The translations under genes were made by a program, and so were the position numbers. The notes under the pieces were generated by a model. The model saw nothing but the letters and a program-made list of their open reading frames with translations. It did no database searches and was not told the origin of the DNA. Of a stretch of 64,000 nt of DNA, positions 30,605-60,921 are shown piece by piece. The stretch's first letter is position 1; each line of letters begins with the position of its first letter. Origin of the DNA: Actinomycetes bacterium (GTDB lineage: Bacteria > Actinomycetota > Acidimicrobiia > Spongiisociales > UBA5794); the NCBI GenBank assembly GCA_024638645.1, contig JAHEJX010000214.1, positions 1-64,000 of the forward strand. The letters run 5' to 3'.

Positions 30605-31023
30605 TCGGTCGATGGTGGTTCAGGCGCCCGTGGCGGCGGGATGTCCGCCGGAGGAAACCTTGGCGAAGGAGCCGCTTGCGGGGGTGGCGCCGGGTTGCCG
30701 AGAGCGGCGGCGAAGTCGTGATCGCAGACTTGGCACTTGGTGGTGCCCTTCGTGACGTCGCTGCCGCACGCAGGGCATTGCCGGGTTGTCGATCGCGGTT
30801 GAGTGATGATCCAGATCGTACCGAGCACGATCGTCCCGATGACGAGCCACCCGATAGCAGCCCGAAAGCCCACTCGGGCATTCCAGCGGCAACCCAGCTC
30901 GTCGAAGCCACCGGTGCCAACACACGCCTGATCTGCCGCGGCATAGCTAAGTGCGGCGATCAGCGTGATGAAGATCCAGGTGATGATCACCCACGTCAGG
31001 ATGCGGCGGCGCGGTCGTGCCAT
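30601..31023 (-). CDS. Small membrane protein with zinc ribbon (CPACG…CQVC)
   Basis: Two TM stretches then QCPACGSDVTKGTTKCQVCDHDF. Confidence 0.65.
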   Translation of the reverse strand: MARPRRRILTWVIITWIFITLIAALSYAAADQACVGTGGFDELGCRWNARVGFRAAIGWLVIGTIVLGTIWIITQPRSTTRQCPACGSDVTKGTTKCQVCDHDFAAALGNPAPPPQAAPSPRFPPADIPPPRAPEPPSTE

Positions 31024-31078
31024 GTGCCGACGTTACATCCGATCCCGGCCAAGCCCGATCAATAGAATCCGTAGGCAA

Positions 31079-33652
31079 ATGAGCAAAGCACTGCCGTCGG
31101 GAACCGTGACTCTTCTCTTCACAGACATCGAAGGAAGCAGTCGGCTGTGGGATGAGCATCGCACTGACATGGCCGCAGCGTTGACACGCCACAACGAGCT
31201 TCTGCGGCTGGCTATCGAGGCAGCTGCAGGCGCAGTGGTGAAGGACAAGGGCGACGGTTTCTTCGCGGTGTTCCACACCGCCACTGATGCACTCCAGGCT
31301 GCCGTGGCAGCACAGCGAGCCATTCGGGCAACGCACTGGCCTGAGTCCACTGGCGCGCTCAAAGTCCGCATGGCAGTACACACGGGTTCAGTGACTCCGG
31401 AGGGCGGGGACTATCGCGGACCAGCCGTCAACCGAGTCGCCAGGCTCGAAGGACTCGGCCACGGTGGCCAGATCCTGGTGTCTGAATCGACGAAGGCTCT
31501 CGTCGAAGATCTCATGCCTGCTGATGCCAATCTCGAGGATCTCGGATCGCACCTGCTGCGAGGAATGTCGCGTCCTGAGAGGGTGTACCAGCTCGTAGCT
31601 CCAGACCTTCCGGCCGTATTTCCGGCACTGCGCACCGATATCGGTGGCGGGGTCGAGCTACCGACTTATCCGACCTCATTCGTAGGGAGGGCGAATGAAA
31701 TGGAGGCAATTGACTCGCTTCTCGCCAGTGGCGAAACACGGCTGGTGACGCTCCTCGGCCCCGGCGGCATCGGAAAGACGCGACTCGCAGTCGAAACTGC
31801 AAGGGTCGCAGGCTCCACGCTGCGGGGCCGCGCCTACTTCGCAGACCTCGCTCCCCTGTCCAACCCATCTGATGTCGGACTCGCAATCGCCGAGGCCGTC
31901 GGCGCCCACACAGAAGGATCGGCGAGCCCAGTGGCACTGGCTGCTTCCCGCATCACCGAGCCGACGCTTGTAGTCCTTGACAACTTCGAGCATGTCACAG
32001 ATGCGGCCGTGACCGTGGCCGAGTTGCTGGATGCGACAAGTGAGCTGCGGCTGCTCGCAACCAGTAGGACACCGCTCAACGTTCGAGGTGAGCGCATCTT
32101 CCATATCGAGCCGCTCAGCTCGGCAAACGGCGACGGATCAACGCCTCCGGCTTTGGCCCTTCTCTACGAACGCGCCGCCAGCTTCGGAGTGACGATTGCC
32201 GACGAAGGGCCGGACAGGGAATCGGCGCTGGCGATCACGAAGCGTCTAGACGGGTTGCCACTCGCAATCGAGCTGGTCGCGGCCAGAACGCGCATCGTCG
32301 GCATCGCCGAACTGGCCGAGTTGCTCGACGAATCTCTCGACGCGCTGGGTGCCGGCTCCGCCGACATGCCGGATCGACAGCGAACGATCCGGTCGACGAT
32401 CGAGTGGAGCCTCCAAGGGCTGACCCAGCAGCAACGAGCACTGTTTGCCCACGCCTCGATATTCCCCGAAGGGTCGACGTTGGCACAGCTCGGAGCCATA
32501 GAACCTGAGGTTTCCAAGACGGAACTACTCGAGAGCATCACGGCTCTTGTCGACAATTCGCTGATCAACGTGGTCACGGAGCAGCCGGGCGCTACCCGGT
32601 ACCGACAATTGGTCGTGCTGCGCGACTACGGCCGTAAACGCCTCGTCGCTGAAGGCACTTACGACGAAACCATGAGCCGGCTCGTCGATTACTACGTCGA
32701 TGCTGCACCGGCGCTGAGTAGGCGGCTACAGCAATCAGATGAAGTCCACAGGGAGCTAGCGCCGGATCACGCGAATTTGCTCGCGGCCATGGACTGGAGC
32801 ATTGCAGGAGGCAGGGTCAGCGAAATGGTCGACGTGACCTGCTCACTGTGGGTGTATTGGTTCAATGGCGACCTTGCGCGGAGCGGCTGGGAATGGTTGG
32901 AGGCTGTGAGGCCGCACTTGCAATCGGCCAAGGTCGAGTGGCTGACTGGCTTCCTGGCCCTGCAATCTGGTGATGCGGAAACCGCCATCCTCAAGCTGAC
33001 CGCAGCAAAGGAGATGTTCGTGGCGGCGGGAGATGATGAGTGGTCGGCTCGGGCGGGCGCGTTCATGTCATTCCTCGCGGAGGATCCTGTTGAAGGCGGG
33101 GCGTGGGCAAGCGAGGCGGTTGAATTCTTCTCCGATGGAGAGCCGGGAGTCGACCTCTTTCTGGCACGATTGATGCAGTCGTCGTTCTACTTCAGGACTG
33201 GCGACCTTGATACCGCCATCGACATTCGACGCAGTCTTCTCGAATGGGGCCAGAACCTCTTCTTCAGCACCATGATCGCCTGGGGACACTGGAATCTCGG
33301 TCTCGCGTTACTCGCTGCCGGACAAGTGGAGGAAGCTCGAGAGCACAACGACGCTGCAGTCGGAACCATGCTCCAAGAGGGGTACCAGGAAGGCGTTGCT
33401 TCGGCGGCTGACATCGAGGCAGCAATCCGGCTGCGCAGCGACGACTATGAATCCGGGCTGCGGATCCTCGGCGGCGCAGATCGCGTTTGGGACACGATCG
33501 GCGCCGTCCGTTGGCCTGAGGCAGGCTTGTTGGTCGAGCAAGCACTTGCGGAGGTCAGTGACAGAATCGGCGCAGATGCAGCCTCCGAGAAGATCGCTGC
33601 CGGCCACGACCTCACACTCGAACAGCTGGCCGCTCTAGCCCTCGATCACTAG
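31079..33652 (+). CDS. Class III adenylate/guanylate cyclase domain fused to NB-ARC/AfsR-like STAND ATPase and TPR-like C-terminus
   Basis: VTLLFTDIEGSSRLWDEH, KDKGDGFFAVF, PAVNRVARLEGLGHGGQILVS (cyclase); LLGPGGIGKTRLAVETA (Walker A); LVVLDNFEHVTDAA; LRLLATSRTPLNVRGE. Confidence 0.92.
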   Translation: MSKALPSGTVTLLFTDIEGSSRLWDEHRTDMAAALTRHNELLRLAIEAAAGAVVKDKGDGFFAVFHTATDALQAAVAAQRAIRATHWPESTGALKVRMAVHTGSVTPEGGDYRGPAVNRVARLEGLGHGGQILVSESTKALVEDLMPADANLEDLGSHLLRGMSRPERVYQLVAPDLPAVFPALRTDIGGGVELPTYPTSFVGRANEMEAIDSLLASGETRLVTLLGPGGIGKTRLAVETARVAGSTLRGRAYFADLAPLSNPSDVGLAIAEAVGAHTEGSASPVALAASRITEPTLVVLDNFEHVTDAAVTVAELLDATSELRLLATSRTPLNVRGERIFHIEPLSSANGDGSTPPALALLYERAASFGVTIADEGPDRESALAITKRLDGLPLAIELVAARTRIVGIAELAELLDESLDALGAGSADMPDRQRTIRSTIEWSLQGLTQQQRALFAHASIFPEGSTLAQLGAIEPEVSKTELLESITALVDNSLINVVTEQPGATRYRQLVVLRDYGRKRLVAEGTYDETMSRLVDYYVDAAPALSRRLQQSDEVHRELAPDHANLLAAMDWSIAGGRVSEMVDVTCSLWVYWFNGDLARSGWEWLEAVRPHLQSAKVEWLTGFLALQSGDAETAILKLTAAKEMFVAAGDDEWSARAGAFMSFLAEDPVEGGAWASEAVEFFSDGEPGVDLFLARLMQSSFYFRTGDLDTAIDIRRSLLEWGQNLFFSTMIAWGHWNLGLALLAAGQVEEAREHNDAAVGTMLQEGYQEGVASAADIEAAIRLRSDDYESGLRILGGADRVWDTIGAVRWPEAGLLVEQALAEVSDRIGADAASEKIAAGHDLTLEQLAALALDH

Positions 33653-53976: not shown

Positions 53977-56900
53977 GTGGCAACGAGAGTCGAAGAGAGC
54001 AACGCCGAAGATCTCACAGCGGCGAAGAGCGGGACGGGCAAGGGTCTCGTCATTGAGCGTCGCTTCACGAAGGATGGGCAGAGCCCCTACGACACGGTGG
54101 AATGGTCGTTCAGGGATTCGCGCATCACGAACCCGGACGGCAGCATCGTCTTCGAGATGCTCGGTGCCGAGATTCCGTCTGGCTGGTCCCAGGTGGCAGC
54201 CGACATCATGGTGTCGAAGTACTTCCGCAAGGCAGGCGTCCCCCAGTTCGACGAGAAGGGCAAGCCGATCCTCGACGAGGACGGCAACCAAGTCACCGGC
54301 TCCGAGACTTCAGCCCGCCAAGTCATCGGCCGCCTCGCCGAGACGTGGCGCCACTGGGGCGAAGAGCACGGCTACTTCGCCGATGAGCAGTCAGCCCAGA
54401 TCTTCGAAGACGAGCTTGCTTACATGCTCGTGCATCAGATGGCCGCCCCCAACTCGCCACAGTGGTTCAACACCGGCCTGGCCAACAACTACGGCATCAC
54501 CGGAACCGCCGAGGGCTTCTGGTACGTGGATCCCGAGACCGAGGAAATGGTCGCCTCTCCCGACTCATACACCCGTCCGGCTCCCCACGCTTGTTTCATC
54601 CAGGCAGTCGACGACGACCTCGTCAACGAGGGCGGCATCATGGACCTGTGGGTTCGTGAGGCTCGCCTCTTCAAGTTCGGCTCAGGCACCGGCACCAACT
54701 TCAGCCACATCCGTGCCGAGGGTGAGCGCCTGTCGGGCGGGGGCAAGTCGTCCGGCCTGATGTCATTCCTCAAGGTCGGCGACCGGGCTGCCGGCGCCAT
54801 CAAGTCGGGCGGCACGACCCGCCGCGCCGCCAAGATGGTCATCCTCGACATCGACCACCCCGACGTCGAAGCCTTCATCAACTGGAAGGCCGAAGAGGAG
54901 AACAAGGTCCGTGCCCTGATCGCGGCGGGTTACCCGAGCGACTTCAACGGCGAGGCCTACATGACGGTCTCCGGCCAGAACTCGAACAACTCGGTGCGCC
55001 TCTCCAACGAATTCGTCGAAGCTGTGCTCCATGACGCCGAATGGGACTTGACCGCCCGCACCGACGGCTCAGTCATGAAGACGGTGCGAGCTCGCAACTT
55101 ATGGCATCAGATCGCCGATGCCGCCTGGCAGTGCGCCGATCCGGGAGTTCAGTTCGACACCACGATCCAGGAGTGGCACACCTCCCCCGCCGGCGGCAAG
55201 ATCCGCGCCACCAACCCGTGCTCCGAATACGTGTTCCTCGACAACACTGCCTGCAACCTCGCCAGCTTGAACCTGGTGAAGTTCTACGACGAGACGACCG
55301 GCGACGTGGATCTCGAGGCATACCGCCACGCCATCCGGCTGTGGACGATCGTCCTCGAAATCTCGGTGACGATGGCGCATTTCCCTTCGGCTGAGATCGC
55401 CCAGGGCAGCTACGACTACCGCACCCTCGGCCTTGGCTACGCCAACCTCGGCTCCCTGCTGATGCAGATGGGTATCCCATACGACAGCGACGAGGGCCGC
55501 GGCATCGCCGGGGCAATGACCGCGATCCTCACCGGCTACTCGTATGCCGCCTCCAGTGAAATGGCTGAGGCGCTCGGCCCGTTCCCCAAGTATTACGAGA
55601 ACGCCGACTCGATGCTGCGGGTGATGCGTAACCATCGCCGCGCTTCGTACAACGCGCCGGACGACGAGTTCGACGGAGTGTCCACCCATGTCATGGGAGT
55701 GAACCCGGATGTCACCCCGAACGACATGGTCCATGAGGCCCAGAACGCCTGGAACATTGCAGTGAAGATGGGAGAGGAGTACGGCTACCGCAACGCCCAG
55801 GCGACGGTGCTGGCCCCAACAGGCACCATCGGCCTGCTGATGGACTGCGACACGACGGGCGTCGAGCCGGATTTTGCGCTGGTGAAGTTCAAGAAGCTGG
55901 CCGGTGGCGGTTACTTCAAAATCGCTAACCAGTCCATCGAGCCGGCCCTGCGCAACCTCGGCTACGACGCAATCGAGATCGAGCAGATCATCGACTACGT
56001 CATCGGCACGATGAAGTTGCACCGGGCCCCGCACATCAATACCTCGAGCCTGATTGCCAAAGGCTTCACCGTCCAGGAAATCGACAAGATCGAGGCTCTG
56101 CTGCCGGGTGTGTTCGAACTCGGCTTTGCGTTCAACCAGTGGACGCTCGGCGAGGAGACGATGCAGCGCCTCGGCTTCACTCCGCAGCAGTACAACTCCC
56201 CGGGCTTCGACATGCTGCGTGAGCTCGGCTACTCGGCGCAGGATGTTCAGGAGGCCAACGACTACGTGTGCGGCCGCCAGACCATCGAAGGTGCGCCGGG
56301 CCTGCGCGACGAGCACCTCCCGGTTTTCGATTGCGCCAACCGCAACGGCAAGTACGGCGAACGTTTCATCCACCACACCGGCCACATCAAGATGATGGCG
56401 GCAGCTCAGCCGTTCATCTCTGGTGCCATCTCGAAGACGATCAACATGCCGAACGAGGTATCGATCGAGGACATCGAGGAGAGCTACCGGATGAGCTGGG
56501 AGCTCGGCCTCAAGGCAATGGCCCTGTACCGGGATGGAAGTAAGGCTTCGCAGCCGCTGAGCGCTAAGTCAGACGACGGCGTCTCAGACGAGGCGGAAGA
56601 AGCTCTCGAGGATGCCCTCGCCCAGGAGATCGGCTTGGTGTCGACCAACCATGCCACGATCCACGGTGGCATGTTCCAGCCGGGCATCTCCCCCACCGAG
56701 GCATATGCAGACCTTCCTCGCCCCCGCTTCCTGCTCCCCGGCCGTCGCGGCGGCTACACGCAGGAGGCAAGAGTCGGCGGCCACAAGTTGTTCCTGCGCA
56801 CCGGCGAATACGAGGACGGCACCCTCGGCGAGGTCTTCATCGATCTGGCCAAAGAAGGCGCCACCCTGCGCGGCATTCTGAGCTGCTTCGCGATTGCAGT

Positions 56901-57477
56901 GTCCAAGGGCCTGCAGTACGGCGTTCCGCTGGAAGAGTTCGTCGACACGTTCACGTTCCAGACGTTCGAGCCGAGAGGCATGGTGGAGGGTCACCCCAAC
57001 ATCAAGATGTCGAACTCGATCGTGGACTATGTGTTCAGGGCGTTGGGTGTCGAATACCTGCACCGCGACGAGCTGGCCCAGGTCCCACCGGAGCGCACCG
57101 GCCTCCCCGAGCCCGCCAAGGGCGTCGCGGTCGACGCCGGCTATCAGCCCGAGCTGGTCGAAGCAGTCATGGAAGATGACATCGACGCCCAGGCGAAGGC
57201 AGCAGCGTTCGTGGACAAGGTCGTGGACCTGCGTGACGAAGACACCCCGACGGTGCACGCCAACGGGACTCCGGCGACGGTTCCGGTGGCTCTGTCCGAC
57301 GGACCAGGCACGATGGCGGCGAAGTCAGCCACAGGCGTGCAGACGGCAGCGATCCAGGCAGTGTTGGCGGACAAGATGGGCGATGCCCCCCTGTGCGACA
57401 CCTGCGGACACATCACCGTGCGGAACGGCAGCTGCTACCGATGCCTGAACTGCGGTGACTCGAAGGGTTGTAGCTGA
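53977..57477 (+). CDS. nrdJ: Vitamin B12-dependent (class II) ribonucleoside-diphosphate reductase
   Basis: [70 protein letters not shown]; C-term zinc ribbon [27 protein letters not shown]. Confidence 0.97.
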   Translation: [1166 protein letters not shown]

Positions 57478-57732: not shown

Positions 57733-60700
57733 ATGCAGTTCGGCATTCTTGGGCCATTGCTGGTCACGACTGGGGGCGACTCGATCGACCTGCCGTCGGC
57801 CAAACAGAGGACGCTTCTGGCGATTCTCCTGATTCACGCGAACGAAGTCATCTCCGTCGACCGGCTGACTGACCTCCTGTGGGAGAACGACCTGCCGGAG
57901 GATCCAGCCAACGCCTTGCGGTTCCACGTCTCGAAGTTGCGGGACAGTCTGCAGATCCGAGAAGCGATCGCGACGGAGGCGCCGGGGTATGTCTTGCATG
58001 TCGAGGCGACTCATCTGGACACCTTGCGCTTCGACGAACTGGCGGCCAACGCACGAGAGCTCGCTCCGCATGATGTGGATCAAGCGCTAACGATGATGAA
58101 CGAAGCGCTGGGCCTATGGCGCGGACCGGTCTTGGCCGAGTTCGAGTACTCGCTCTTCGCGCGGGAAACGGCGCTCCACTACAACGAGAAGCGAATCTCA
58201 CTTCTTGAAGATCGCATCGCGATCGAAGTCGAGAGTGGTCGCGGGGCCAATGCCATCGGCGAGTTGGAAGGCCTCGCAGCTGAGCATCCCTTCCGAGAAC
58301 GAATCGCCTGCCTGCTCATGCTCGCCTTGTACCGATCCGGGCGTCAGGCAGAGGCGCTGCGGGCTTGCGGTCGGCTGCGAAGCCGCCTCGTCGAGGAGCT
58401 CGGCATCGACCCCAGCGAATCAACCCAGCTGCTCGAACAACGCATCCTGGATCAAGACCCGACGCTCCTAGAGGGATTGGAGCCCGCAAGGCTCACCCCG
58501 CTCGGCAAGGCTGTCCGGGACTTCGAGATCGGCAATCGTATTGGAGAAGGCCGGTTCGGAATCGTCTACCGAGGGCGACAGACGACGGTTGGCAGGGACG
58601 TTGCGCTCAAAGCGATCCGCCCTGAGTACGCCAACGATCCAGAGTTCCTGCGGCGATTCGAAGCGGAGGCGCAGCTGGTCGCACGACTCGAGCATCCTCA
58701 CATCGTGCCGCTCTACAACTACTGGCGCGAGCTCGACACGGCGTATCTGGCGATGCGCCTGCTCCGGGGTGGGAGCCTTCGCGAATCGCTGCACCTCGGC
58801 CCGTGGCGAGGTGACCGGCTCGGGGCGCTGATTGAACAGATTGCTGCAGCGGCCAATGCGGCGCATCGTCAGGGAGTCATCCACCGCGACATCAAGCCAG
58901 CCAACATCCTTCTCGACGAGGACGGCAACGGATACTTGTCCGATTTCGGAATCGCAAAGTTCATCGACGCCGGCCAGGCCTTAACCCGAACCGGTGGGGC
59001 CCCGATCACTCCCGCCTACATGGCTCCGGAATTGCTTGACGGATCAGGGAACGTGGGACCCGCCTCGGATATCTATTCGCTGGCAATCGTGGCCCATGAA
59101 GCCCTCACAGGAGCGCACCCATACGTCACAGACTCTGTTTCCGCCATGATCAAGCACCAGCTCCACGAACCCCTGCCGCAGATAGCGAACGAGTCTGCGG
59201 CGACTGCGGTTCTGGCTAGAGCCGCTTCGAAAGACCCGTCCGAACGGCATCCCGACATTCGAAGTTTCGCCCGAGAATTGAGCGAAGCCCTCGATCCAAC
59301 CAGCTCAGTTGACGTCTTGATCCGAACCGAACAGCCCGAGATTGATGAGCAACCGATGACACTCTCCGATTTCATTTCGGCGGAGGCGCCGTTTGGCCCA
59401 ATCGCTATGGACGAGATTTCGTCGCCTGCCATTTACCGACAGCTGTACGACAGCGACAACCGGATCTATGAGGAGATCAACCAGCGCAACCCCTCCTTCA
59501 TCGTGGGGCGCCGCGGCGCCGGGAAGACTGCGCTCATGCGCGCACCGCTGCTCGATCCGGGCAACCTGCTGATCGAGTTCCAGTCAGCCGAGCTGTTTGC
59601 CCACGTGCTGCGCTGTGTCGATTCCATGGAGGCGAGCGGGGGGCGCATCTTCGCCAACCAGATAGCCGATCTGTGGGACGGCGTTGTATGGACCGGGTTG
59701 TGCCTGGGGACCCTTCGTTCGATAGACGGGTCGGCTGCGTCTCAGCACGACCTCCGCGTGGTGCAGCGGTTCGTGGCAGGCCACGGCGACATAAACACAA
59801 TGACAATCGACGGTATCGCCGCCCGCCACTGCCGGAAGGTCTCCGACGGGTCAGCAACCACTGCGGAGACTACGGGAGCGCTCGATGTGTCCTCGGGCGG
59901 AGTCGATATCCGAACAGCAAGGGTGTCCTGCTCGAAACTGCTACGGGATGCTGAGCTCAAACCGATCGTTCTCATCGACACTATGGAGGACCTGCACAAC
60001 GAGGTTCACACCCTGGCGCGAGTGCTGGCAGGCCTCTTCACGCTGATAGGCCGCACCGACCGCTCGCCGAATCGTGAGATCCAGTTCCGCTTCTGCTACC
60101 CGTCTGAGCTGTGGAGCAAACTCGCCGAGTTCGCAGCCAACCCACTCAAAGATGCTGAGAACAACATCAAGCTGTTCTGGCACGCTCGGGAGCTAATCAG
60201 AATCGCCGGGCATCGCCTCTCGCTCTATCTCGACATGAACAGCCCCGCCGTGCTTGACGAACTGTTCGGCCGCCGCGGGTACGACAAGACGTCCTATGAA
60301 GATGCGCGAGCCGTACTCGAACGGGTCCTGCCGGTAGGTGTAGAGAACTCATTCGGTGTGGAGGAGGCGACACTGGCATATGCGCTGCGGCACACACAGT
60401 TGCTACCACGCCACCTCCTCCGGATCCTCAACGGGGTGATGCGGCGCAGCAGAGAGCTCGAGGACGAGCCGCTCACCGTGTCACCTGCCGCTGTGACCGA
60501 TGGCGTACGACGCGTGGAAGAGCTTCTCGTCACAGAGATCTTCACCGCCTACTCCGCGGTCCACCCCAGCGCTCGTGAGGTGTGCAGGCGAGTCATTCCA
60601 GACCTTGCGCTGGCCTTCACTGACGGCAACCTACACAAGGTGTTCAACCAGGCCGGGATTCGCAAGGCAACGGGACTCCAGTACTTCGACTTCAAGGAGA

Positions 60701-60921
60701 TGCTGTTGGAAATCGGGTGCGTTGGCAGAGTCATCGGGCACACCGATCGATACGTCGAAGGCGAGTTCGACTACACCCTGCCGACACCCCTCTTCCCAGG
60801 CGCGGATGACGAGCTGTGCCTTCATCCCTTGTTCTCAAGAGTGTTCCGCGCTCGCATTGATGAGGGCGCTATGCCTGTCTACCCATATGGTGCCGACCCG
60901 CAGCATCAACCCACTTGGTGA
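57733..60921 (+). CDS. SARP-type regulator (wHTH+BTAD) fused to Ser/Thr protein kinase and C-terminal P-loop ATPase
   Basis: MQFGILGPLLVTTGGDSIDLPSAKQRTLLAILL…VDRLTDLLW…LRFHVSKLRD (SARP HTH), BTAD repeats; IGEGRFGIVYRG, VALKAIRP, HRDIKPANIL, SDFGIAKF, YMAPELL (kinase); SFIVGRRGAGKTALMR (Walker A), PIVLIDTMED (Walker B-like). Confidence 0.92.
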   Translation: MQFGILGPLLVTTGGDSIDLPSAKQRTLLAILLIHANEVISVDRLTDLLWENDLPEDPANALRFHVSKLRDSLQIREAIATEAPGYVLHVEATHLDTLRFDELAANARELAPHDVDQALTMMNEALGLWRGPVLAEFEYSLFARETALHYNEKRISLLEDRIAIEVESGRGANAIGELEGLAAEHPFRERIACLLMLALYRSGRQAEALRACGRLRSRLVEELGIDPSESTQLLEQRILDQDPTLLEGLEPARLTPLGKAVRDFEIGNRIGEGRFGIVYRGRQTTVGRDVALKAIRPEYANDPEFLRRFEAEAQLVARLEHPHIVPLYNYWRELDTAYLAMRLLRGGSLRESLHLGPWRGDRLGALIEQIAAAANAAHRQGVIHRDIKPANILLDEDGNGYLSDFGIAKFIDAGQALTRTGGAPITPAYMAPELLDGSGNVGPASDIYSLAIVAHEALTGAHPYVTDSVSAMIKHQLHEPLPQIANESAATAVLARAASKDPSERHPDIRSFARELSEALDPTSSVDVLIRTEQPEIDEQPMTLSDFISAEAPFGPIAMDEISSPAIYRQLYDSDNRIYEEINQRNPSFIVGRRGAGKTALMRAPLLDPGNLLIEFQSAELFAHVLRCVDSMEASGGRIFANQIADLWDGVVWTGLCLGTLRSIDGSAASQHDLRVVQRFVAGHGDINTMTIDGIAARHCRKVSDGSATTAETTGALDVSSGGVDIRTARVSCSKLLRDAELKPIVLIDTMEDLHNEVHTLARVLAGLFTLIGRTDRSPNREIQFRFCYPSELWSKLAEFAANPLKDAENNIKLFWHARELIRIAGHRLSLYLDMNSPAVLDELFGRRGYDKTSYEDARAVLERVLPVGVENSFGVEEATLAYALRHTQLLPRHLLRILNGVMRRSRELEDEPLTVSPAAVTDGVRRVEELLVTEIFTAYSAVHPSAREVCRRVIPDLALAFTDGNLHKVFNQAGIRKATGLQYFDFKEMLLEIGCVGRVIGHTDRYVEGEFDYTLPTPLFPGADDELCLHPLFSRVFRARIDEGAMPVYPYGADPQHQPTW

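Follow-up and report, generated by a model that had tools for sequence, protein, structure and literature searches.

The locus raises the question of whether one gene can join a DNA-binding activator, a protein kinase and an ATPase, and how such a protein might operate. Within the window (the whole 64,000-nucleotide stretch of DNA that was analysed), the gene is a single open frame of 1062 codons for amino acids without internal stops, and Pfam and NCBIfam profile searches placed along it, in this order, an OmpR-type winged helix followed by a BTAD (together a SARP head), a Hanks-type Ser/Thr kinase and an Sll1717-family P-loop ATPase. The original prediction, made from the letters alone, had described one uninterrupted frame in which a SARP module and a kinase are fused in cis and followed by a P-loop ATPase, and the frame, the domain matches and the homologues described below all bear this out. 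Each motif it named is present (GEGRFG, VALK, HRDIKPAN, DFG, APE, Walker A and Walker B), and the features are collected in Table 1.

Table 1. Position and basis of the features of the fusion gene.
Feature	Coordinates	Strand	Basis
Whole gene, SARP head + Ser/Thr kinase + Sll1717 ATPase	57733..60921	+	Open frame, Pfam, NCBIfam, full-length homologues
OmpR-type winged helix (Trans_reg_C), residues 22-81	57796..57975	+	Pfam PF00486; aligns with AfsR DNA-binding domain
BTAD, residues 95-239	58015..58449	+	Pfam PF03704, 4e-37
Hanks-type Ser/Thr kinase domain, residues 264-512	58522..59268	+	Pfam PF00069, 7.6e-47; nearest solved structures PknE/PknB/PknA
Catalytic Lys K293 (VALK)	58609..58611	+	Motif read in sequence
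Catalytic loop HRDIKPAN, residues 384-391	58882..58905	+	Motif read in sequence
DFG, residues 404-406	58942..58950	+	Motif read in sequence
Activation-loop T418-R-T420	58984..58992	+	Aligned with PknB loop V-T-Q-T; T418 invariant in three fusions
Sll1717-family P-loop ATPase, PFGPI motif to C-terminus	59389..60918	+	NCBIfam NF047389 and alignments
Walker A GRRGAGKT, residues 592-599	59506..59529	+	G592, G595, G597, K598 unchanged throughout a 15-sequence Sll1717 alignment
Walker B VLIDTMED, residues 746-753	59968..59991	+	D749 invariant (15-sequence Sll1717 alignment)
RHTQLLPR motif, residues 886-893	60388..60411	+	P892, R893 invariant in family (15-sequence Sll1717 alignment)
Possible C-terminal winged helix, ~residues 945-1015	60565..60777	+	Predicted helices then strand, weak

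Full-length homologues were found in two other Acidimicrobiia genomes, G042 (contig 2, CAMYMH010000002.1; 59% identity) and G004 (contig 129, DKBA01000146.1; 54% identity), and the recurrence of the same domain order in both excludes chance. Among the three fusions, identity is 56-65% in the kinase, 60-63% in the ATPase, 49-55% in the BTAD, 34-46% in the winged helix and 20-33% in the linker. These homologues also decide whether separate genes could have been merged into a three-domain frame by an error of assembly or annotation. The three genomes are all fragmented (~100 to 340 contigs) and both homologue records are titled as MAGs, but two independent genomes show the same three domains, order and joins, the window frame has no stops, and codon-position GC is similar across its three modules. 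The two full-length homologues thus refute a merger of genes, and we regard the probability of an artefact as negligible. The Sll1717 version of the fusion is rare, occurring in 3 of the 138 genomes of the order. Its ATPase subfamily was detected in four genomes, both among the 396 of the class sample and among the 138 of the order; three are the fusions and the fourth, G013, has a frame that lacks both head and kinase and lies close to the end of a contig. Searches of three further congeneric genomes did not recover the subfamily, and a scan of viral contigs yielded no relative.

Both parts of the SARP head scored above their Pfam cut-offs (Trans_reg_C, 33.8 bits against 26.2; BTAD, 128 bits against 22.1), and AfsR and EmbR are its nearest solved structures. 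Of the AfsR DNA-contact residues, S46, W74, P79, R87, S91 and R94 are retained and Q48, T88, R92 and K95 are altered; the changes at DNA- or RNAP-contacting positions include T88 to F64, R92 to K68, K95 to D71 and E76 to N52. All three fusions share the DNA contacts S91 and R94, while the base-reading positions T88 (F/T/T) and R92 (K/R/N) differ among them, which suggests that the three heads recognise different targets. No repeat with 11- or 22-bp spacing was found upstream of the gene, giving no sign of autoregulation. In the BTAD tree, the three heads seem to be of different origin, the L039 head grouping with cyclase-type fusions, but an AU test did not reject a single clade of the three (p 0.07), so that head-swapping among these fusions is suggestive only.

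The kinase domain matches Pkinase over residues 264-485 (160 bits) and has all the hallmarks of a Hanks-type enzyme, with an intact Gly loop, Lys, HRD, DFG and APE; motif reading and alignment agree with the earlier claim that every catalytic residue is present. Its T418 aligns with the activation-loop threonines of PknB. Catalytic motifs and activation loop are shared with PknB/PknE-type kinases, which are stand-alone receptors, whereas the fusion kinase is joined to a DNA-binding domain. In a kinase tree, the fusion kinases form one group relative to the eight stand-alone kinases tested (100/99), inside which those of the three Sll1717-type proteins make up a clade (97/93).

The ATPase had been predicted to resemble Sll1717-type or KAP/defence-type P-loop ATPases more than NB-ARC; the Sll1717 call is borne out by a score above the curated NF047389 cut-off (residues 568-1036; 122.8 bits against 75). 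Neither NB-ARC or TPR after the BTAD nor nSTAND1 (PF20703) after the kinase was matched by Pfam in the 1062-residue protein, and the AfsR equivalog profile of NCBIfam reached 176 bits, far below its cut-off of 1430. Walker A, Walker B (D749) and the PR motif (P892-R893) are held in common with stand-alone Sll1717 ATPases; the other Sll1717 proteins above the cut-off in the phylum sample, unlike the fusion, are separate frames of 507-604 amino acids. Profile searches of the PDB with ATPase alignments returned Walker-A-level matches only. Structure prediction gave a mean pLDDT of 56.5 for the ATPase (5 sequences) and 39.5 for the whole protein (3 sequences), and a fold search with the ATPase model returned no match at E <0.9. 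The predicted C-terminal winged helix fared less well than the other domains: a helix-helix-helix-strand run reaches a pLDDT of ~82, but within a low-confidence model, and we treat it as a weak candidate. At two other loci (L060:1949-2725 and L061:6874-7953), a distant Sll1717 ATPase that has neither head nor kinase adjoins a gene whose product is hydrophobic at its N-terminus and matches no Pfam family, a possible partner.

To place the fusion among its relatives, we read 27 SARP-kinase frames in full or in part, drawn from searches in relatives and the phylum. Three have Sll1717 and 22 carry nSTAND1, in many cases together with WD40 repeats or an SBP domain; the remaining two are truncated frames in which no C-terminal domain was recognised. 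A cyclase domain lies between BTAD and kinase in 5 of the 22 nSTAND1-type proteins, one of them in the window's own genome (G000:C206). Such fusions are frequent in the order, and some occur outside the class (G592, G651, G719, G604, G671, G486). As many such frames turned up and their kinases group together, joining a SARP head to a kinase is a common design, in which the C-terminal ATPase varies. The BTAD-kinase-nSTAND1-WD40 and -SBP proteins (for example L041, L047, L051; with a cyclase, L040) share SARP head, Hanks kinase and domain order with the window protein, but carry nSTAND1 plus repeats or a solute-binding domain in place of Sll1717, run to 1500-2000 amino acids, and sometimes have a degraded kinase. 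The same-genome protein L040 (G000:C206:10761-16724) comprises 1988 amino acids with cyclase, kinase, nSTAND1 and WD40-like repeats, its kinase residues all intact. Three others (L047:4443-9377, L050:6111-11021, L051:5692-10338) end in SBP_bac_1, normally extracytoplasmic and here apparently an intracellular sensor.

The uniqueness implied by the original prediction does not hold, as 24 of the 27 frames lack an Sll1717 tail and one of these is in the same genome. The open literature searched yielded no publication on Sll1717 or on SARP-kinase fusions, and the parts of Krupa and Srinivasan 2005 that we consulted discuss AfsR only as an AfsK substrate (PMC1262709). We conclude that the window protein is a genuine but rare member of a group of SARPs with their own kinase, which is widespread and apparently undescribed.

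The surroundings of the gene offer no conserved partner. A class II ribonucleotide reductase gene, nrdJ (53977-57477), ends 255 bp upstream, and a gene for a 216-residue protein without a Pfam match follows on the opposite strand; both homologues lack these neighbours, in keeping with the view that the gene stands alone. We rejected a link to nrdJ because of the 255 bp gap and because the homologue genomes carry nrdJ elsewhere and the relatives read carry it without the fusion gene. The nrdJ genes of two genomes of the same genus (L129:3323-7996, minus strand; L130:736-6051, plus strand) contain inteins (Intein_splicing/LAGLIDADG, Hint) at different sites, and that of the window has none. Class III cyclase + AAA_16 proteins are encoded in the window (30965-33652) and at L058:2789-6229, one of them lying directly upstream of the G042 homologue.

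How might the fusion work? Judging from its sequence and from analogy, we give about an even chance to its being a self-contained, signal-responsive transcription activator, with the ATPase as sensor and switch and the kinase acting in cis or in trans. The notion that the ATPase switches and the kinase tunes derives from AfsR of Streptomyces coelicolor, which aligns with the fusion over residues 1-245 (E 1e-40) and likewise couples a SARP head to an ATPase switch modified by a Ser/Thr kinase. In AfsR, the C-terminal NOD and TPR inhibit the SARP head and ATP binding relieves the inhibition, whereas phosphorylation raises ATPase activity, counteracts ATP and hardly alters transcription activation (PMC10936776). 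AfsR differs from the fusion in having NB-ARC/NOD and TPR and in lacking a built-in kinase, AfsK being a separate protein; similarly, in EmbR of Mycobacterium tuberculosis a SARP head is under Ser/Thr kinase control, but an FHA domain is present and PknH is separate. By motif position, T599 of Walker A corresponds to AfsR T337, the last Walker A residue and an AfsK target. In the proposed sequence of events, binding of a cue to the Sll1717 ATPase would alter its nucleotide and oligomer state and bring kinase domains together, which would autophosphorylate the activation loop, with T418 the first candidate, and may phosphorylate further sites within the protein. The rearrangement would release the N-terminal SARP head, which, like that of AfsR, would dimerise side by side on a direct-repeat box and recruit RNA polymerase. 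The effect of the kinase could be activating, or resetting as in AfsR. In favour of this proposal are the domain matches, the recurrence of the architecture in three genomes, the retained kinase and nucleotide-binding residues, the invariant T418 and the kinase clade; counting against it are the altered AfsR contact residues, the absence of an 11- or 22-bp-spaced repeat upstream, the slight effect of phosphorylation on activation by AfsR and the low quality of the structural models of the ATPase and the whole protein.

A self-contained activator has to be weighed against two other functions. The ATPase alone could be the switch, with a kinase that is vestigial or structural, as in relatives with lost catalytic residues: of the 23 other SARP-kinase proteins whose kinase region is complete, 8 have lost at least one of K/D/N/D, and AfsR is itself activated by ATP binding, not phosphorylation (PMC10936776). 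However, all three Sll1717-type fusions retain K293, R385-D386, N391, D404 and the activation-loop Thr, a contrast that with only three proteins is statistically not strong, and retention of these residues at 56-65% kinase identity implies selection on activity; we consider a vestigial kinase unlikely. Less probable still is a kinase that acts mainly on other proteins, with head and ATPase serving to localise or gate it and an output of cell-wide phosphorylation, for example phage-induced shutdown, rather than transcription. P-loop ATPases are frequent in defence systems, and the kinase domain scores well against the PADLOC defence kinases PD-T4-6 and MAD6. Yet these matches span the kinase domain only, as expected of any Hanks kinase, the MAD6 score is 143 against an NCBIfam cut-off of 460, and neither the system-specific domains nor the partner genes of PD-T4-6 and MAD6 were found at the locus. 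No defence genes are adjacent, neighbours are not conserved, and the BTAD is fully kept.

A bolder extension of the self-contained activator, which we hold only as a long shot, is that kinase and Sll1717 ATPase form a conserved core with exchangeable heads, the cis kinase setting the ATPase switch, for instance at T599, and the heads wiring it to different genes; if true, no earlier role assigned to an Sll1717 ATPase was found in our search. More broadly, the locus brings to light a group of actinobacterial transcription factors equipped with a kinase of their own, of which the open literature searched yielded no description. Being short and catalytically intact, the Sll1717 version is the most tractable member of the group. 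It lets one ask whether SARP activators obey phosphorylation in cis, and it offers a route to a first function for the Sll1717 ATPase family.
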